A program made the translations under genes and the position numbers. A DNA stretch of 63,009 nt from Lachnospiraceae bacterium (lineage in GTDB: Bacteria > Bacillota > Clostridia > Lachnospirales > Lachnospiraceae). Location of the stretch: contig JAETQI010000023.1 in assembly GCA_021770755.1 (NCBI GenBank), positions 1 through 63,009 on the forward strand, read 5' to 3'. Below, in pieces: positions 2,755 through 19,140 of this stretch. The notes below the pieces were generated by a model that did not search any database, was not told the DNA's origin, and was given only the letters and a program-made list of their open reading frames with translations. Positions within the stretch are counted from its first letter, which is position 1; each line of letters starts with the position of its first letter.

Positions 2755-3582
2755 ATGAAGGAGCCAGATATCAAAGAATACCTCTCCCAGATCGGGATCC
2801 GCAAGATCTCCGAGCTGGATACGGCATTGATCGAAACGTATGGACAGAAGGAAGGCAGCCAGCACATAGAAACACTGACGAAGTTATTTGACCAGTCCGA
2901 GGAACGATTGGTATATGGAACAGGAGACACGCCCTGTCTCCACCGCCAGGACGAGCTGGTCGATTACTGGAATCAGGATCTTCAGCTTAGTCTATTGGCA
3001 GCGTCCTTTTATGACCGCGTGTTTTTCCGAAGAGTCCTTGAGTATCTGGTCAAAAAGGATTCTTTTATTGCCGAAGATATTCTTGATATCGGGTGCGGCA
3101 ACGGGATCCTGACCTGTTTTCTCGCACTGCAGCACCCAGATGCCCGCATCACAGGTCTGGATCTCTCCGCAAAAGCTGTCTCTGTTGCGAATAAGCTCTC
3201 TCAAAGCCTTCATATAAACAACACGAATTTTGTCACTCCTGAAGAATCCCTGCAGGAAAAATATGACACACTGTTCTCCTGCCGCACAGTACACGAGAAT
3301 GTCGCCTGGAAAGCGCTCTGCAAAGAACCCAAACCAGCTCTCCTTCCGATCGGTGAGCTCACAAAGCGCCATAAAAAGTATGCAGCAAAACTTGCAGCAC
3401 TGATAAAGACGGGCGGATATCTGATCAGCATAGAACGCTACGAGGACGACAACACCTATGCCGGTCTGGTCAGCGCGCTAAGCTGTGCCGGTTTCAGTCA
3501 GGTGCGTGGGACACATATGCAGTTTTCCTGCAAAAACGGAGACGGAACGGCTGCATTTCAGGCAATGATCTTTCAGAAATAA
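2755..3582 (+). CDS. class I SAM-dependent methyltransferase
   Basis: 275 aa starting after AGGAGGGAATCTGC. SAM-binding motif I is ILDIGCGNG at about residue 115, followed by an acidic residue after the second strand (ITGLDLS). The first 100 residues form a helical extension of unknown role. No substrate can be named: there is no clear neighbour, and the sequence does not show the signature of an RNA, protein or menaquinone methylase. It is transcribed towards pnp and ends just before the 89-bp repeats. A 14-bp palindrome (AATTCCATGGAATT, 2667-2680) and an extended -10-like TGTGATAAAAT lie upstream. Confidence 0.82.
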   Translation: MKEPDIKEYLSQIGIRKISELDTALIETYGQKEGSQHIETLTKLFDQSEERLVYGTGDTPCLHRQDELVDYWNQDLQLSLLAASFYDRVFFRRVLEYLVKKDSFIAEDILDIGCGNGILTCFLALQHPDARITGLDLSAKAVSVANKLSQSLHINNTNFVTPEESLQEKYDTLFSCRTVHENVAWKALCKEPKPALLPIGELTKRHKKYAAKLAALIKTGGYLISIERYEDDNTYAGLVSALSCAGFSQVRGTHMQFSCKNGDGTAAFQAMIFQK

Positions 3583-3585
3583 TCC

Positions 3586-3852
3586 TGTGCAATCGAGTAG
3601 GGAAGAGCCTTCTTCCACTACTCGCGCGCAGAGCACCCGTCAGCGCATACTGACATTCTTCCTCTGGGTGCCCGTGTGCAATCGAGTAGGGGAACGTCCT
3701 TTTCCACTACTCGTGCGCCGGGCACCCGTCAGCCTCTGCTGACATTCTTCCTCTGGGTGCCCGTGTACAATCGAGTAGGGGAATGTCCTTCTCCACTACT
3801 CGCGCGCCGGGCACCCGTCAGCCTCTGCTGACATTCTTCCTCTGGGTGCCCG
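3586..3852. repeat. three tandem 89-bp structured repeats
   Basis: Units start at 3586, 3675 and 3764, exactly 89 bp apart, each beginning TGTGC or TGTAC then AATCGAGTAG. Every unit predicts two hairpins: CGAGTAG...CTACTCG, and a bipartite one with outer stem GGGCACCC/GGGTGCCC and inner stem GTCAGC/GCTGAC. Units 2 and 3 are nearly identical; unit 1 is more diverged. The array fills the space between the convergent methyltransferase and pnp genes. A fourth copy is at 17157-17246. No protein is encoded. Confidence 0.85.
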
Positions 3853-3865
3853 TGTACATAAAAGG

Positions 3866-3900
3866 AAGGGAGACGCCATTCCGCAAAATGTGTCTCCCTT
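3866..3900 (-). terminator. terminator after pnp
   Basis: AAGGGAGAC (3866-3874) pairs with GTCTCCCTT (3892-3900); on the minus strand the stem is followed by CCTTTTATG. It is 23 bp past the pnp stop codon. Confidence 0.65.
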
Positions 3901-3922: not shown

Positions 3923-6049
3923 TTACTGCTGTGCCACATCCTTCATCGAGAAGCTGATGCGTCCCATCTTATCCCTGCCAAGACACACGACCGTGACAAC
4001 ATCACCAAGTGTGAGCACATCCTCGACGTGGTTGATCCTCTCCTTCGCGATCTTGGAGATATGCACCATGCCCTCCTTGCCCGGAGCAAACTCGAGGAAT
4101 GCACCGAATTCCTTGATGCTGACAACCTTGCCCTTAAATACCTGGCCTGCCTCAAAGTCCGTCGTGATGATCTTGATCATCTCGCATGCCTTATCCATCA
4201 TCTTCTGATCCGTACCGCAGATGCTCACAAAACCGTCGTCTGAAATGTCAATCTTGACGCCTGTCTGCTCGATGATCGTATTGATAGTCTTGCCTCTCTG
4301 ACCAACCACATCGCCAATCTTTTCCGGATCGATCTTTGTCTGTATGATCTTAGGCGCATACTCTCCCACGGACGGTCTTGGCTGACCGATGCAGGGGATC
4401 ATGATCTCGTTCAGGATATACATTCTGGCATCTCTTGTCTTGGCAATCGCTTCCTCAACGATCGGCCTTGTCAGACCATGGATCTTGATATCCATCTGGA
4501 TCGCTGTGATACCATCTTTTGTACCAGCCACCTTAAAGTCCATATCGCCAAAGAAGTCCTCGAGTCCCTGGATATCTGTCAGTACGATATAATCATCATC
4601 TGTATCTCCTGTCACAAGCCCGCAGGAAATGCCTGCTACCGGCTTCCTGATCGGCACACCTGCCGCCATCAGCGACATGGTAGATGCACAGATCGAACCC
4701 TGCGAAGTCGAACCGTTTGACTCAAACGTCTCTGACACTGTGCGGATCGCATACGGGAAATCCTCCTCGGAAGGAAGAACCGGTATCAGCGCTTTCTCCG
4801 CCAGCGCACCGTGACCGATCTCGCGGCGTCCCGGTCCCCTTGAAGGTTTTGTCTCACCTACTGAATAGGACGGGAAATTGTAATGATGCATATATCTCTT
4901 TGCTGTCTCGTTCTCGTCAAGTCCGTCGATCTTCTGAACTTCTGACAACGGTGCCAGCGTTGTAACCGTACAGATCTGTGTCTGTCCGCGGGTAAACATT
5001 GCCGAGCCATGTACACGCGGAATGATATCGGTCTCAGCCGCAAGCGGACGGATCTGCGTGATCGCACGGCCGTCAGGACGCTTGTGATCCTTTAAGATCA
5101 TCTTGCGGACTGTCTTTTTCTGATACTGGTAGATCGCTTCTCCAAGGATCGCAAGCCACTCCTCGTTGTCTGCAAAAGCTTCCTCGAGCTTCTCGGTGAT
5201 CTTGCGGATGTTCTCTTCCCTTACCTGCTTCTCGTCTGTAAATACGGCAACTTCCATTTCCTCCGGCGGCACGATCTCTTTGATCCTTGCAAACATCTCC
5301 TCCGGAATCGCACAGCTCGTATACGCATGCTTTGCCTTGCCGACCTCAGCCACGATCTGATTGATAAATGCGATGATCGTCTGATTGATCTCGTGGCACT
5401 TGTAGATCGCCTCGATCATCCTGTCCTCCGGTACTTCATTCGCGCCAGCCTCGATCATGATGACCTTCTGGCTTGTAGAAGCTACTGTCAACTGCAGATC
5501 GCCGTTTTTCCACTGTTCCTGATTCGGGTTTACCACAAACTCACCGTCGACCAGTCCCATCTGCGTCGTCGCACACGGTCCATCAAACGGAATGTCTGAT
5601 ATGGAGGTGACGATCGCCGAACCGATCATTGCCACCAGCTCCGGGCGGCACGCCGGATCGACACTCATGACCATATTATTTAAGGTAACGTCATTTCTGT
5701 AATCTTTCGGGAACAGCGGACGCATCGGCCTGTCGATCACGCGGCTCGTAAGGATCGCGTTCTCACTCGCCTTGCCCTCCCTCTTGTTGAAGCCTCCCGG
5801 GATCTTTCCGACAGAGTAGAGCTTCTCCTCGTACTCCACAGAGAGCGGGAAGAAATCAATACCGTCTCTGGGCTTGTCAGATGCAGTGGCTGTACAGAGC
5901 ACTGTCGTATCCCCATAGTGCATCAGCGCCGCTCCGTTTGCCTGTGCTGCCACCCTGCCAATGTCAACTGTCAATGTGCGTCCTGCAAGCTCCATGCTGT
6001 AAGCTTTGTAGGACTTGTCCTTTTTTTCACTGAATGTCATGTATTCCAT
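3923..6049 (-). CDS. pnp: polyribonucleotide nucleotidyltransferase (PNPase)
   Basis: 708 aa. Phosphorolytic 3'-5' RNA degradation in the cytoplasm. Two RNase PH domains are visible, the second carrying GRREIGHGALAEKALIPVLP; they are followed by a KH domain (VVGQRGKTINTIIEQTGVKIDI) and a C-terminal S1 domain (GKVVSIKEFGAFLEF). The ATG at 6049 (MEYMTFSEKK) is chosen because AGGAG sits 11 bases upstream; codons further upstream have no RBS. It lies downstream of rpsO, the conserved bacterial arrangement, with two hairpins in the intergenic leader. Confidence 0.97.
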   Translation of the reverse strand: MEYMTFSEKKDKSYKAYSMELAGRTLTVDIGRVAAQANGAALMHYGDTTVLCTATASDKPRDGIDFFPLSVEYEEKLYSVGKIPGGFNKREGKASENAILTSRVIDRPMRPLFPKDYRNDVTLNNMVMSVDPACRPELVAMIGSAIVTSISDIPFDGPCATTQMGLVDGEFVVNPNQEQWKNGDLQLTVASTSQKVIMIEAGANEVPEDRMIEAIYKCHEINQTIIAFINQIVAEVGKAKHAYTSCAIPEEMFARIKEIVPPEEMEVAVFTDEKQVREENIRKITEKLEEAFADNEEWLAILGEAIYQYQKKTVRKMILKDHKRPDGRAITQIRPLAAETDIIPRVHGSAMFTRGQTQICTVTTLAPLSEVQKIDGLDENETAKRYMHHYNFPSYSVGETKPSRGPGRREIGHGALAEKALIPVLPSEEDFPYAIRTVSETFESNGSTSQGSICASTMSLMAAGVPIRKPVAGISCGLVTGDTDDDYIVLTDIQGLEDFFGDMDFKVAGTKDGITAIQMDIKIHGLTRPIVEEAIAKTRDARMYILNEIMIPCIGQPRPSVGEYAPKIIQTKIDPEKIGDVVGQRGKTINTIIEQTGVKIDISDDGFVSICGTDQKMMDKACEMIKIITTDFEAGQVFKGKVVSIKEFGAFLEFAPGKEGMVHISKIAKERINHVEDVLTLGDVVTVVCLGRDKMGRISFSMKDVAQQ

Positions 6050-6206
6050 ACAATACGATTCTCCTTTTCTTTTTATACTATGCGCCAGCCGCAGCCGCGA
6101 AGGGGCGTATTTTCTTATACGGCTGTATACGATCCTGATTCCCCGCACCACGCAGGCGGCAGAACCGATCCCAGACAGAATTGTGACAGAACCTGCCGAA
6201 ACTACT

Positions 6207-11799: not shown

Positions 11800-14799
11800 T
11801 TATCTCGGCACTTCCACCATGATATATGCCTCGACGATATCAAGCTCCTGCATGCTGTCAAAACCTTCAAATACCAGACCGCACTCAAAACCTGCCTTCA
11901 CTTCCTTGACATCGTCCTTAAATCTCTTGAGCGAAGCAAGACTACCCTCATAGATCTGTTCGCCCTCACGGGTGATGCGGATCTTACTGCCTCTCTGGAA
12001 TACGCCGTCAAGGACATAAGAACCTGCGATATTACCTACAGCGGATGCCTTAAAGATCTGTCTGACCTCGGCATGCCCGATCACCTTCTCCTCGAATACA
12101 GGATCCAGCATACCCTTCATCGCGGCCTCGATATCCTCGATCGCCTGATAGATCACCTTATAAAGTCTCACATCAACGCCTTCGCGCTCCGCGGTCGCCT
12201 TCGCCTGCGTGTCCGGACGCACATTAAATCCGATGATGATCGCCTTCGACGCGGACGCAAGGATAACATCCGACTCATTGATGGCACCGACACCGCCGTG
12301 AATGCACTTGACAACGACCTCCTCGTTGGAAAGCTTCATGAGGCTCTGCTTTACAGCCTCCACACTGCCCTGCACATCAGCCTTGATGATCAGGTTCAGT
12401 TCCTTTAAGTTTCCTGCCTGAATCTGCGAGAACAGATCATCGAGGGACATCTTAGCCTTAGTATCTTCAAGAAGCTTCTCTTTATTCTGCGCCACGAAAG
12501 TCTCTGCGTAATATTTTGCCTCCTTGTCGTTCTCATGCGCGATGAAGATCTCCCCGGCGTTCGGCACATCGCCAAGACCAAGGATCTCTACCGGTGTGGA
12601 AGGACCCGCTTCTTTCACGCGTCTGCCCTTGTCGTCTACCATGGCGCGCACCTTGCCGCTCGCGGCGCCCGCGGACACGAAATCACCGACATTTAATGTA
12701 CCCTTCTGTACCAGGATCGTGGCAACCGGACCGCGTCCCTTGTCAAGCTCTGCCTCGATCACGAGACCTCTTGCGCGCCTGTTCGGATTGGCTTTGAGTT
12801 CGAGCACCTCCGCGGTCAGCAGGATCATCTCAAGCAACTGTTCGATGCCCTCGCCGCTCTTTGCCGATACCGGCACAAATACCGTGCTTCCGCCCCAGTC
12901 CTCCGCGATCAGCCCATACTCTGTGAGCTCCTGCTTCACGCGCTCTATATTTGCCCCCGGCTTATCGATCTTGTTGACAGCTACGATGATCTCAATACCT
13001 GCCGCTTTCGCATGGTTGATCGCCTCCACCGTCTGAGGCATGACGCCGTCGTCCGCAGCCACAACAAGAATCGCGATATCCGTCGAATTCGCACCGCGCA
13101 TACGCATTGCCGTGAACGCCTCATGTCCCGGTGTATCAAGGAATGTGATCTTCTGTCCGTTGACATTAACCGTGTACGCACCGATGTGCTGCGTGATGCC
13201 GCCCGCCTCTTTGTCCGTCACATTTGTCTTTCTGATCGCATCAAGCAATGATGTCTTACCGTGGTCAACATGCCCCATTACACAGATGACAGGCGATCTT
13301 GGAACCATATCCTCCTGCTTCTCATCTTCCTCTTTCAGAAGCTCCTCGATGACATCCACCTTCACTTCCTGCTCGCAGATGATATCGTACTCGATCGCGA
13401 TATTCTCCGCCGTCTCATACGAGATCTCCTGATTGACTGTCACGATCTGTCCCTGCAGGAAAAGCTTCTTGACGATAGCGGACGGCTGTACTTTCATCTT
13501 GTCAGCGAGATCCTTGATGGTGAGCGTCTCGGGAAGCGTGATCGTCTTGATCTGCTCCTCAACTTCCTCAACCGCTTTCTTCTCGGGCTTGATGAATTTA
13601 CCAGGCTTATTCTTGCCCTTGATGTTCTTGATGTTTTCGCTGTCCTCCTCATAGATCAGGTCCTTGCGGTTTCTCTTGTCCTTCTCCTGACTGATACGGC
13701 GCTTTTCCTCATCTCTATGCTTCTCAGCATCCTTGATCGGACTCTCCGGCACAAATCCGCCGCTCTTGCCGGAATTTTTGCCGCCAAAACCGCCTCTGTT
13801 ATCACGGCCGCGGTCATTGTCCCGACCGCCTCCAAAGCCCTGTCCGGGTCTTCCACCCTGACGCTGTCCGTCTCCCCTGTTGCTGTCATAGCCTCTCTGA
13901 CCGTCGCGGCGCTGTCCGTCTCCCCTGTTGCCGCCCTGGCGCTGTCCATCGCCCCTGTTGCTGTCATAGCCTCTCTGACCGTCGCGGCGCTGTCCGTCTC
14001 CTCTGTTGCCGCCCTGGCGCTGTCCGTCTCCCCTGTTGCTGTCATAGCCTCTCTGACCGTCGCGGCGCTGTCCATCGCCCCTGTTGCTGTCACGGTGCTG
14101 TCCGTCTCCTCTGTTATTGCCGCTGCCATTGCCATTATTCCGGCGCTGTCCATCGCCCTTATTGTTATCGCGGCTTTCATTCTTTTGTACAGCCCTGGAT
14201 TCCTCTGCTTTGACATCGGCTGCCTTTGCCGGTTCCTCAGCCTTGACAACTGTCTCCGGCTTCACGACAGGCTGTGTCTTTGCCGCCTCCTCATTTTTAG
14301 GCTGCTCTGTTCTGACCTCAGCCGCATTTGCAACTTCTGCCGCCTTTGGTACTGGCTTCTCGACAGCCGGCTCTGCTTTTGCAGCGGCAGCCGGTTTTAC
14401 GGCCTCTGTATGCTCTGTCTTTGCCTGCGGTGCTGCTTTCTTCTCCGCGCGCGCGGGCTTTCTGGGAATCTGCGCGCCTCCCGGCATCTTCGAATTGTGA
14501 GGATTGCTCACAAATATAATGCTCTTTTTCTTCTTTACGACTCCTTCCCCAGTCTTGGCAGGCGCCTTCGTCTCCCCCGTTGCCGCGGCCTTTGACGGCT
14601 CACTCTTCTCTGTTGTCTTAGGTGCCTCTTCTGACTTAGCAGGTGTTTTCATCGTCTTCCTTACGTCCTCTACCTGTCCGTCCTCTAATACACTCATGTG
14701 GCTTTTTACCTCTATACCTTTATTTTTTAATAATGCAAGGACCTCTGCGCTCTTTACGCCGATCTCCTGTGCCAGTTCATACACTTTCATTTTCGCCAT
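11800..14799 (-). CDS. infB: translation initiation factor IF-2
   Basis: 999 aa; GTPase that places initiator tRNA on the 30S subunit. Order: IF2_N domain (1-50), Ala/Lys/Pro/Glu-rich linker, Arg-Gly-Asp-Gln-rich repeats (about 218-330), second IF2_N (about 420-475), G domain from about 509 ([32 protein letters not shown]), then domains II-IV. The ATG at 14799 is chosen because GAGGAG is 4 bases upstream and overlaps the end of ylxQ. Longer than many IF-2 proteins because of the repeat linker. Confidence 0.97.
13827..14142 (-). repeat. tandem 78-bp coding repeats in infB
   Basis: A 26-residue unit (begins [14 protein letters not shown]) is repeated two full times and part of a third, within a longer RGDGQR-rich stretch. 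The repeat encodes a disordered, Arg/Gly-rich linker in IF-2 and is in frame throughout. Confidence 0.85.
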
Positions 14800-14800
14800 A

Positions 14801-15136
14801 TTACTCCTCCTCACCCTCACTCTTCACAGACCGTTCCAACTGCTCCCTTATTGATTTTGCGAAGTTTTCATCTGTAATTGCAAGAGATGAACGCATAGCC
14901 TTACCGATCGCATGCCCAAGTTCCTCTTTTGTTCCGAAAAAATATCTTGGTACTTCGTAAAACTCACACATATTGGAAAACATCTTCCTGGTATTCTCCG
15001 ATGCATCCTCTGACACAATGACAAGCCATGCCTTGCCGCCCTTGACACTCTTGTCGGTTGCAAACTCTCCACTTTCTACCTTGCCTGCTTTCATCGCAAG
15101 CCCCAGCGTGGAATATACCTTATCTACACTATTCAA
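14801..15136 (-). CDS. ylxQ: L7Ae/L30e-family RNA-binding protein YlxQ
   Basis: 111 aa. L7Ae-like fold: [17 protein letters not shown], then [17 protein letters not shown] and [18 protein letters not shown]. It lies between ylxR and infB as in Bacillus. The start is a TTG at 15136 (LNSVDKV), overlapping the last codons of ylxR, with GGAG about 10 bases upstream. Kink-turn RNA binding is known for the family, but its own target is unclear. Confidence 0.88.
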
Positions 15137-16622: not shown

Positions 16623-17099
16623 CTAAAAATCCAATGTTAATCTGATGATCGCTATGTCGGATCTGGCAAAGACCATATCCTTTGTCTCTGAATCATTTTC
16701 TGTCTGTATCGTGACAGTATCCCTGTCAAATGCCTTGAGGATACCGATAAATTCTTTCTGCCGCCCGATCGGCTTGTAGGTCTTGACCTCCACTTCTTCG
16801 CCCAGGCTCTTCTCCAGATGCCGGTCCTTCCGAAGCGCCCTGCCAAGCCCCGGGCTGGATACCTCCAGTATATAGGCATCCGCTATAAAATCTTCCTCGT
16901 CCAGTTTTTCCGAAAAAGCGCGGCTGACATTCTCACAGTCAACGATGCTCACACCCTCCGGCTTGTCGATATAAGCCCTCAGATACCAGTCGCTCCCTTC
17001 CTTGACATACTCGACATCGTAAATACTGCAGCCGTTTGCTGCAACAATCGGCGCAAGCAGTGCTTCTGCGCGCTCCTCGTACGAATTCTTTTTCGCCAT
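16623..17099 (-). CDS. rimP: ribosome maturation factor RimP
   Basis: 158 aa. Needed for 30S assembly. Motifs IYDVEYVKEG, LRAYIDKPEGVSIVDCENVSR and LEVSSPGLGR are characteristic. ATG 17099 (MAKKNSYEE) has GGTGAAGGA just upstream; an upstream in-frame ATG adds five residues but overlaps this RBS. First gene of the nusA-infB operon. Confidence 0.95.
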   Translation of the reverse strand: MAKKNSYEERAEALLAPIVAANGCSIYDVEYVKEGSDWYLRAYIDKPEGVSIVDCENVSRAFSEKLDEEDFIADAYILEVSSPGLGRALRKDRHLEKSLGEEVEVKTYKPIGRQKEFIGILKAFDRDTVTIQTENDSETKDMVFARSDIAIIRLTLDF

Positions 17100-17156
17100 T
17101 CCTTCACCTCGCACTAATATAACTTTACCTGCCGGCAGATTTCCTCTGCACGGGTC

Positions 17157-17246
17157 TGTGCAATCGAGCAGGGAAGAATCCTCTTCCCCCTACTCGCCGC
17201 ACCGGGCGTCCGTCAGCGCATGCTGACATTTTCCTCTGGACACCCG
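17157..17246. repeat. fourth, diverged copy of the 89-bp structured repeat
   Basis: 90 bp beginning TGTGCAATCGAG. It keeps both hairpins although the sequence differs: outer stem GGGCGTCC/GGACACCC replaces GGGCACCC/GGGTGCCC with two paired changes and one mismatch, and inner stem GTCAGC/GCTGAC is unchanged. It lies upstream of rimP and downstream of the citrate synthase gene. Confidence 0.8.
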
Positions 17247-17257
17247 TGTGCATATAG

Positions 17258-17285
17258 AAAGAGTGGACTCGCAAGTCCACTCTTT
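17258..17285. terminator. terminator after citrate synthase
   Basis: Perfect 12-bp stem AAAGAGTGGACT/AGTCCACTCTTT around CGCA, T-rich on both sides, about 80 bp past the citrate synthase stop. Confidence 0.75.
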
Positions 17286-17363
17286 ATCATCTAGCATCAT
17301 TTAACTTATAATCATTCTAACACTGCAGCGCACAAATTGCAATAACTTTTTAGAATTTTTTTC

Positions 17364-18785
17364 CTATTCGTTCATAGGAAGTTTATATACCTTTTGATCC
17401 TGCCCGTCCAACTTGGGTGTCGATCTGTCTTTCAATGTCTCATACGGCCGCAGCACTGCGATACTCTTGTACGCAGGTCTGATGATCTTGTCGACATTGA
17501 TCAGCTCCTCCATGCGGTGCGCACTCCATCCGACAATACGTGCGATCGCGAAGATCGGCGTGAACAGTTCCATCGGGATATCCAGCATACTGTACACGAA
17601 TCCGCTGTAAAAATCGACATTTGCGCTGACACCTTTGTAGATCCTGCACTTCTCGGCTATAACCTCCGGCGCCAGCCGCTCGATCATGGAGTACAGTTCG
17701 AAATCCTTGCGGTGCTTCTTCTCGTTGGCAAGCTTCTCCACGAATGACTTGAACACCTTTGCCCTCGGATCCGAGATCGAATACACAGCATGTCCCATTC
17801 CATAGATCAGACCGGCACGGTCAAACGCCTCTTTGTTCAGAAGGCGGTACAGATATTGCCGCACCTGATCCTCGTCTGTCGTATCGTCCACATTTCTCCG
17901 CAGGTCTTCCATCATCTGCACGACCTTGATGTTGGCGCCGCCGTGCTTTGGTCCTTTCAGGGATGACAGTGCCGCCGCGATGACAGAATACGTGTCCGAA
18001 CCTGCGCTGGTGACAACCCTGGTCGTAAATGTCGAGTTGTTCCCGCCGCCGTGTTCCATGTGAAGCACAAGCGCCGCATCGAGAACTTTGGCCTCCGTCG
18101 GCGTGTACGACATATCCGGCCGCAGCATTCTCAGCAGGTTCTCCGCCGTGGAAAGCCTCGGGTCCGGTCTATGTATGTACAGGCTCTCGTCGCATTCATA
18201 GTGATTGTACGCATGATATCCGTATACGGATAACATCGGAAATACACTGATCAGCATCAGACTCTGTCTGAGCACGTTGTCTAGCGACATGTCTGTCACG
18301 CTGTCATCATAAGACGCAAGTGTCAGCACACTCTTCGTCAGCGAATTCATAATGTCATGGCTTGGCGCCTTCATGATGACATCCCGCACGAAATTCGTGG
18401 GCAGCGTCATGCTGTAGCCCAAAGTCTTCTTAAACTCCATCAGTTGGCTCGTATTCGGAAGGCTTCCAAACAACAGCAGATACGCGCACTCGTCAAAGCC
18501 GAACCGCTCATCATTCTGGAACCCCCTCACCAGATCATAAATATTGTATCCCCTGTAGTAAAGCTGACCATCGCAGGGGATACTCTTTCCGTCTATCTCT
18601 TCCGAGGATTTTATCAATGAAATATTGGTAAGTCCGGAAAGAACACCCTTTCCATTCTTATCACGCAAACCTCTCTTTACGCCGTATTCATCAAACAGAT
18701 CCGGATCGATGGCGTTGTTGTCTACACACACTTTTGAATATTTATGCGTAAACTCCTTTATACTCTCGTCACTCTTTAATCCCAT
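17364..18785 (-). CDS. gltA: citrate synthase
   Basis: 473 aa. Condenses oxaloacetate and acetyl-CoA, first step towards 2-oxoglutarate and glutamate. Catalytic motifs: His in GPKHGGAN, His in GMGHAVYS and Asp in ANVDFYSGFVY. It is longer than the usual 370-430 aa, with about 40 extra residues at the N-terminus, as in other Clostridia. Single-gene unit with its own promoter and terminator. The product may serve glutamate synthesis; no other TCA genes are nearby. Confidence 0.93.
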   Translation of the reverse strand: MGLKSDESIKEFTHKYSKVCVDNNAIDPDLFDEYGVKRGLRDKNGKGVLSGLTNISLIKSSEEIDGKSIPCDGQLYYRGYNIYDLVRGFQNDERFGFDECAYLLLFGSLPNTSQLMEFKKTLGYSMTLPTNFVRDVIMKAPSHDIMNSLTKSVLTLASYDDSVTDMSLDNVLRQSLMLISVFPMLSVYGYHAYNHYECDESLYIHRPDPRLSTAENLLRMLRPDMSYTPTEAKVLDAALVLHMEHGGGNNSTFTTRVVTSAGSDTYSVIAAALSSLKGPKHGGANIKVVQMMEDLRRNVDDTTDEDQVRQYLYRLLNKEAFDRAGLIYGMGHAVYSISDPRAKVFKSFVEKLANEKKHRKDFELYSMIERLAPEVIAEKCRIYKGVSANVDFYSGFVYSMLDIPMELFTPIFAIARIVGWSAHRMEELINVDKIIRPAYKSIAVLRPYETLKDRSTPKLDGQDQKVYKLPMNE

Positions 18786-18964: not shown

Positions 18965-19036
18965 CAGCTCGTAGGGGAATCGAACCCCTGTTTTCGCCGT
19001 GAGAGGGCGACGTCTTAACCGCTTGACCAACGAGCC
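18965..19036 (-). tRNA. tRNA-Glu (anticodon CTC)
   Basis: 72 nt folding as a standard cloverleaf: acceptor GGCTCGT/ACGAGCT with G73, D-arm GGTCAAGCGGTTAAGAC, anticodon loop CTCTCAC and T-arm CAGGGGTTCGAATCCCCTA. Anticodon CTC reads GAG. CCA is not encoded. Identical in sequence to the upstream copy at 19069-19140. Confidence 0.95.
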
Positions 19037-19068
19037 TTAATGTGTATTATCAATATAAAGTTGTAAAA

Positions 19069-19140
19069 CAGCTCGTAGGGGAATCGAACCCCTGTTTTCG
19101 CCGTGAGAGGGCGACGTCTTAACCGCTTGACCAACGAGCC
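19069..19140 (-). tRNA. tRNA-Glu (anticodon CTC), second copy
   Basis: Base-for-base identical to the tRNA at 18965-19036 and 32 bp upstream of it in the direction of transcription, so the pair is probably one transcript. Confidence 0.95.

Follow-up and report, generated by a model that had tools for sequence, protein, structure and literature searches.

What are the repeats of 89 bp that stand in tandem behind the pnp gene of a Lachnospiraceae bacterium, and how did they come to be there? They lie on contig JAETQI010000023.1 (assembly GCA_021770755.1), of which we analyzed the stretch of 63,009 nucleotides referred to here as the window. The initial annotation of this DNA offered three options, namely a small RNA, a protein-binding array or a non-coding mobile element, of which the mobile element is the one that fits. 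What it had missed is that the units are to be read on the minus strand, that they sit at T-tracts, mostly those of terminators, and that one of their two hairpins, hairpin A, resembles domain VI of group II introns. We consider it probable that the units, which lack domain V and show no recognizable domain I, are non-autonomous satellites, about 89 nt long, of class-C-like group II introns and that they are mobilized in trans.

The initial description of the two sites largely holds. Tandem Repeats Finder (TRF) reports 3.0 copies with a period of 89 at 3586-3855 (91% matches), i.e., the three tandem copies at 89-bp spacing first described, with starts at 3586, 3675, and 3764. The fourth, diverged copy is present at 17157-17251 (first given as 17157-17246) and is preceded by a partial unit that had not been recorded (Table 1), and the TGTRC borders hold for the copies in the window. 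On the minus strand, a unit of about 85-90 nt reads 5'-G(C/T)RCA, hairpin B, GCGC, the domain-VI-like hairpin A and, at its 3' end, CCTACTCGATT; in the window, the 3' ends are CCTACTCGATT or CCCTACTCGATT-like variants of it. A search of the whole window against Rfam at the gathering score revealed no family match in the units.

All four window copies fold into hairpins, whichever strand is taken, with z scores of -4.5 to -6.8 that 0 of 200 shuffles equaled. Between unit 2 and copy 4, the outer stem changes from GGGCACCC/GGGTGCCC to GGGCGTCC/GGACACCC by two double changes and with one C.A mismatch, as the initial annotation had pointed out. Its further suggestion that the fold is kept by compensatory change is supported by covariation in hairpin B and by double changes across genera. 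We counted structure in 77 distinct copies of hairpin B, chosen from 130 and including window 3626-3679. In these, 96.2% of the cells are paired, compared to 77.9% in shuffles, and both sides have changed in 284 cells, compared to a shuffle mean of 100. The covariation score is 0.512, whereas shuffles reach 0.207 and slid structures at most 0.096; much of this signal comes from a few inherited subfamilies. Pairs with double changes number 11 of 19, which does not exceed the shuffles (10.5). Hairpin B occurs in two types, B1 and B2, which have a common architecture of a 9-bp outer stem, an inner stem and an 11-nt one-sided bulge, and which differ in their stem sequences. In one hairpin-B copy (L180:654-718), the one-sided bulge is now fully paired, resulting in a long perfect palindrome.

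The units are dispersed. A covariance model built from 40 units, in which only part of the helices was used, has at least 128 matches at E ≤ 0.001 in the genome of the window, with 150 of 2231 candidates scored. When 60 genomes were scanned, 28 of 36 from the same genus had matches, the genome of the window included, compared to 1 of 24 from other families (G042, with one match). Copies in related genomes, for which the initial annotation had proposed such a search, are thus present; its remark that the two window sites bracket the pnp-rimP block apparently describes a coincidence, given the number of matches in this genome. Among named genomes, one exact pattern from hairpin B was found in 57 stretches, most of them labeled Lachnospiraceae and a few labeled Hungatella, Roseburia, Clostridiaceae, Clostridia or simply bacterium, and a viral scan with one exact pattern gave 0 stretches. 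Our own 80 sources, i.e., 79 stretches and the window, hold 97 A, 90 B1, and 41 B2 modules, counting partial ones.

Related units also occur outside the genus. We searched 295 genomes of the order for the pattern TTTATG-N60..90-CCTACTCGATT and obtained 29 matches in the genome of the window, 4 in G217 and 1 in G179, the last two genomes representing other genera of the family. By their layout, the matches in G217 and G179 are units, with the same ends, a purine-rich bulge and an upstream stem-loop with T-tract, and with different stems; the genera that hold related units besides that of the window are g38 and g36. Single matches in G155, G255, and G209 resemble chance hits or represent a piece of an intron, and 5 single matches were obtained with the pattern run backward as a control. 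Across the three genera, double changes are found in 12 of 27 pairs, compared to a shuffle mean of 7.5.

Where do the units insert? A unit starts with its G directly after a T-tract (TTTTTAT on the minus strand), which usually belongs to an intrinsic terminator. Beyond TGTGC, the next base is A at 78 of 86 right ends and the next four are ATAA at 55. The 46 nt upstream of 85 copies fold with a median of -16.8 kcal/mol, compared to -5.8 kcal/mol at 333 control TTTTAT sites. We rely on these energies because a strict stem test, positive at 43/85 copies and 56/333 controls, misses stems that run into the T-tract. The gene on the side of the T-tract points towards the unit in 61 of the 77 arrays that have a gene call, and overlap with an open reading frame (ORF) was counted for 44/85 copies on the basis of crude ORF calls. 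Class C introns insert just 3' of intrinsic terminators (PMC4424553, PMC8919778), and most copies show this same co-oriented insertion. By eye, the units at L043:1551-1638, L082, L095, L097, and L099 are immediately followed by a ribosome-binding site and a start codon, and could affect translation.

That the units move is demonstrated by empty orthologous sites and by terminators that carry unlike units from one species to another. At the citrate synthase terminator, 9 of the 13 relatives fetched carry no unit, 3 carry another unit or a remnant and 1 is off-site; at the pnp terminator, all 7 of 7 relatives are without unit or module match. At the L018 site, the gene end in G003, G012, and G017 is followed at once by a matching terminator and no unit is present, with a gene-side flank too diverged to place the empty junction at the level of single bases. 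Unit types at one terminator differ across species at 2 of the 6 sites compared (L096/L164/L219 and L024/L184), as they do at the second site of the window, and the insertion at L095/L240 looks inherited. No target duplication is visible.

Arrays have a history of their own. Copies within an array are more alike than copies from different arrays (A, p = 6e-7; B1, p = 5e-4; B2, p = 0.06), and the likeness of the A and B1 copies indicates that arrays grow also by local duplication. Polar growth by age was not borne out: the scores of full same-type modules rise towards the terminator in 6 arrays, fall in 2 and tie in 3. Truncation at birth during copying was rejected, given that it is the domain VI (DVI) side that is truncated and that a relative, L163, has two units at the L045 site; because of this relative, the truncation at the L045 site looks like a later deletion.

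What, then, moves the units? The 89-nt unit contains no reverse transcriptase (RT)/maturase, and RT is found solely in separate full introns. Searching the fetched RT loci for unit modules, we detected L134, a group II intron of the genome of the window with matches to the Rfam models D1D4-3 and D1D4-1 and an RT/maturase (TIGR04416, E 2.2e-129). A complete unit and a partial one, oriented like this intron, follow its 3' end without a gap. Likewise, in G217, a unit that ends in CTGCTCGATT is contiguous with the 3' end of a class-C-like intron (L313). The terminus of other introns of the genus is CCTACTCGATT or CCTACTTGATT, and the 11-nt terminus occupies the same position in units and introns; units combine a DVI-like hairpin with the local intron terminus. 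The 5' junction could be seen for 17 of 24 RF02001 intron matches. There, the preceding 46 nt fold at -11.9 to -26.9 kcal/mol, and the junctions mostly have a T-rich tail (short in L262 and L264), e.g., CCTTTTTAT directly followed by GTATG in L133. These introns are termed class-C-like on account of their target, Rfam models and short protein. By eye, five introns are 3'-truncated and have the 5' end at the tract; truncated units show this polarity too. L268 (G034:C217, about 1428-1954) is an ORF-less deletion derivative of a class-C-like intron, about 530 nt long, with domain I, V and VI ends. In G032, the hairpin upstream of a 3'-truncated group II intron (L262, about 1380-1430) is a unit hairpin A, and at L312/L313 (G217:C65) the class-C-like intron apparently lies beside the 3' region of another group II intron.

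The likeness between hairpin A and domain VI was examined with a profile of seven intron DVI hairpins, scanned over 309 kb at E < 5. Of the 97 A hairpins, this profile matched 65 in the orientation of the introns and 24 in the opposite one; 19 belong to both sets, as a nearly palindromic hairpin leads one to expect. No hairpin B was matched, a reversed decoy gave 1 match, and the remaining rows are two true intron DVI hairpins and one unit remnant at E 2.2. The kinship of the units with group II introns is well supported.

In the mechanism that we propose, the unit RNA would be recognized via its DVI-like 3' hairpin by the RT/maturase ribonucleoprotein (RNP) of a class-C-like intron, placed at the terminator T-tract and then copied into DNA. 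As the T-tract would remain next to the latest insert, further units as well as full introns could land at the same spot, and same-type arrays would in addition enlarge by local tandem duplication. Dispersal, target, orientation, the conserved fold, the empty sites, the common terminus and the adjacency of introns and units are observed; it is the RNA intermediate, the trans-acting RNP and the descent from an intron that we infer here. For class C maturases, one study reports a predicted DVI-binding face and a mobility assay on a target consisting of a DNA hairpin and intron-binding site 1 (IBS1) (PMC7161350).

Co-occurrence points in the same direction. Of the genomes with units, 16 of 28 have the intron domain-I model, compared to 1 of 8 without units (one-sided p = 0.031); for RVT_1, the respective counts are 21 of 28 and 3 of 8 (p = 0.06). 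These tests, and that on Y1 transposases given below, ignore phylogeny, the incompleteness of metagenome-assembled genomes and multiple testing, and are only supportive. RT presence alone was rejected as an explanation on the grounds of this p value and of two genomes, G032 and G014, without an RVT_1 match.

Several observations weigh against a dependence on class-C-like introns. The co-occurrence with introns is weak: 12 of the 28 unit-bearing genomes are without the domain-I model, G019 has the model and no units, and G032, with 91 unit matches, is without RVT_1. As to the target, upstream flanks fold weaker than -10 kcal/mol in 23/84 cases and a few copies stand, by eye, before a ribosome-binding site, for which reasons the T-tract may matter more than the hairpin; moreover, one intron of another type (L136, RF02012) does not sit after a terminator. 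Single DVI-profile matches to units are weak (best E 0.0036). No domain V is present: at the gathering score, Rfam places no group II family in the units of the window, nor does it at the first site under permissive settings. Hairpin B has no visible similarity to domain I. The bulged branch-point adenosine of an intron is missing, the position being paired in the unit consensus and occupied, over 86 full A hairpins, by A in 66, G in 15 and another base in 5. The pairing and the hairpins with G make the normal lariat route doubtful. The 5' consensus of group II introns is GUGYG, unlike the GCACA, GCGCA, and GTACA of the units, although the 5' ends of the local introns vary as well (GTGCG, GCGCG, GTATG). 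Finally, truncation affects the DVI side in 42 of 90 arrays and the other end in 4, which is the opposite of what incomplete complementary DNA would give.

Some of these points would be accommodated by an unrelated element that merely shares the target, introns and units each favoring T-tracts behind terminators on their own. Its hairpin A would have come to resemble domain VI through convergence, or through capture of the 3' end of an intron on which it does not functionally depend. Such an element would explain the weak co-occurrence, the lack of domain V and a branch position that is paired and sometimes G. We regard it as unlikely, given that the 11-nt terminus lies at the same position, that the DVI-profile matches show an orientation bias and that both borders correspond.

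Could a transposase cut the units out as DNA instead? REP/BIME (repetitive extragenic palindromic sequences and bacterial interspersed mosaic elements), PATE (palindrome-associated transposable elements) and BOX-type repeats are small palindromic intergenic repeats, often arrayed, and the units are like them in all these respects. An element of the REP or PATE kind would be moved by a Y1 transposase, either of IS200/IS605 or a REP-associated tyrosine transposase (RAYT), that cuts hairpins in single-stranded DNA, with the units as the end hairpins of the element and TTTTAT as the cleavage target. The two hairpins, the insertion 3' of a short motif, the one-sided fixed target and the lack of a visible target duplication would all agree with this, and Y1_Tnp matches occur in 20 of 38 genomes of the genus. 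However, Y1 presence is not tied to the units (16 of 28 unit-bearing and 3 of 8 unit-free genomes, p = 0.28), and units are present without any Y1 match in G034 (100% complete), G012, G006, G014, and G030. At the 14 Y1 loci fetched, of 50 matches, there is no unit module, and neither the DVI-like end nor the adjacency to introns would be explained. The units thus differ from the known repeats in the absence of a matching Y1/RAYT pattern, in their fixed T-tract junction and in their DVI-like end. We rejected a Y1/RAYT transposase as the mobilizer on the evidence of co-occurrence and of the Y1 loci, and hold this explanation as a whole to be quite improbable.

An element selected by the host for regulation or RNA stability, e.g., 3'-end protection, a backup terminator or a small RNA, might have spread through its usefulness, and the strongly covarying folds at gene ends would suit such a role. 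The patchy distribution (8 of 36 genomes of the genus without a match), the empty sites, the variable copy number, the truncation of copies in tandem and the location of the units 3' to the terminator, i.e., mostly outside the mRNA that ends there, make this very improbable. A miniature inverted-repeat element of a DDE transposon was rejected, as neither terminal inverted repeats nor a target-site duplication could be seen by eye at 48 left junctions and the empty sites.

If the units are satellites of class-C-like introns, how do they compare to known systems? With bacterial class C (group IIC) introns they have in common the target, the orientation and, for several introns of the genus, a terminal hairpin ending in CCTACTCGATT; they differ in being about 89 nt long, in having no ORF, no domain V and no recognizable domain I, and in a paired branch position at which the base is not A in every copy. 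Bacterial group II introns without an ORF are rare and are nearly always found in genomes that also hold related introns, whose protein may act in trans (PMC4424553); unlike the units, they keep domain V and the ribozyme. The same source describes group III introns of Euglena chloroplasts, which are 90-120 nt long, sometimes with only domain I and VI motifs, have no domain V, are thought to depend on trans-acting parts and are the most reduced group II derivatives that it presents. The units are similarly short and without domain V, and have a domain-VI-like hairpin; Euglena introns are spliced from genes, whereas the units sit after terminators in bacteria. By analogy, the units may also be compared to short interspersed nuclear elements (SINEs) that have a 3' stem-loop in common with a partner long interspersed nuclear element (PMC5135761): both are short, non-autonomous and present in many copies, with a 3' end common to an autonomous retroelement. 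Unlike SINEs, the units are bacterial and target a terminator T-tract.

A broader claim, which we advance tentatively and at somewhat less than even chances, is that the units are SINE-like and group-III-like bacterial mini-introns without domain V, parasitic in trans on class C RNPs, with about 100 or more copies per genome in at least three genera of Lachnospiraceae. Such mini-introns would have escaped notice because surveys of group II introns search for domain V and RT; PMC4424553 and PMC8919778 indicate this reliance on domain V or RT, and the pipeline described in the latter requires domain V. Our literature search, mostly without subscription journals and thus weak evidence of absence, found no bacterial mini-introns of this kind. 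If true, the claim would show how a group II intron can come apart into machinery that acts in trans and short substrates that depend on it, a step that models for the origins of spliceosomal introns and SINEs leave open. A split between catalytic core and substrate intron has been proposed for the origin of the spliceosome; the units would then represent its counterpart in bacteria living today, and would account for structured repeats after terminators in gut Lachnospiraceae. The claim predicts that the maturase binds unit RNA and that this RNA is joined or copied at the T-tract.

Table 1. Repeat units, insertion sites and neighboring genes in the window.
Feature	Position	Strand	Basis
Unit 1, most distant from the pnp terminator	3591..3679	-	TRF, model match
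Unit 2	3680..3768	-	TRF, model match
Unit 3, adjoining the terminator T-tract	3769..3857	-	TRF, model match
Hairpin A of unit 3, group II intron domain VI-like; unit end CCTACTCGATT	3770..3802	-	DVI profile match 3794-3769, E 0.075
Hairpin B of unit 3, with an outer and an inner stem and an 11-nt purine-rich one-sided bulge	3804..3857	-	Fold
T-tract target directly 5' of unit 3 in intron orientation (ATAAAA on +; TTTTAT on -)	3858..3863	-	
pnp terminator hairpin (GGGAGAC...GTCTCCC)	3868..3898	-	Read from sequence
pnp, gene whose terminator is the insertion site	3923..6151	-	
Methyltransferase-domain gene, convergent with pnp; stop separated by 3 bp from position 3586	2755..3582	+	
Remnant of another unit, type B2	17131..17161	-	
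Fourth unit, altered outer stem	17162..17251	-	
Terminator hairpin of the citrate synthase gene with its T-tract; G014, G017, G005, and G002 without unit here	17252..17286	-	
Citrate synthase gene, owner of the terminator at the second site	17364..18785	-	
rimP, downstream of the second site	16623..17114	-	

Two other repeats were seen in the window. Tandem repeats of 78 bp at 13856-14151 lie within a long minus-strand ORF (11800-14820). At 18965-19140, two tRNA genes with identical Rfam scores stand 104 bp apart within a 97% tandem repeat.
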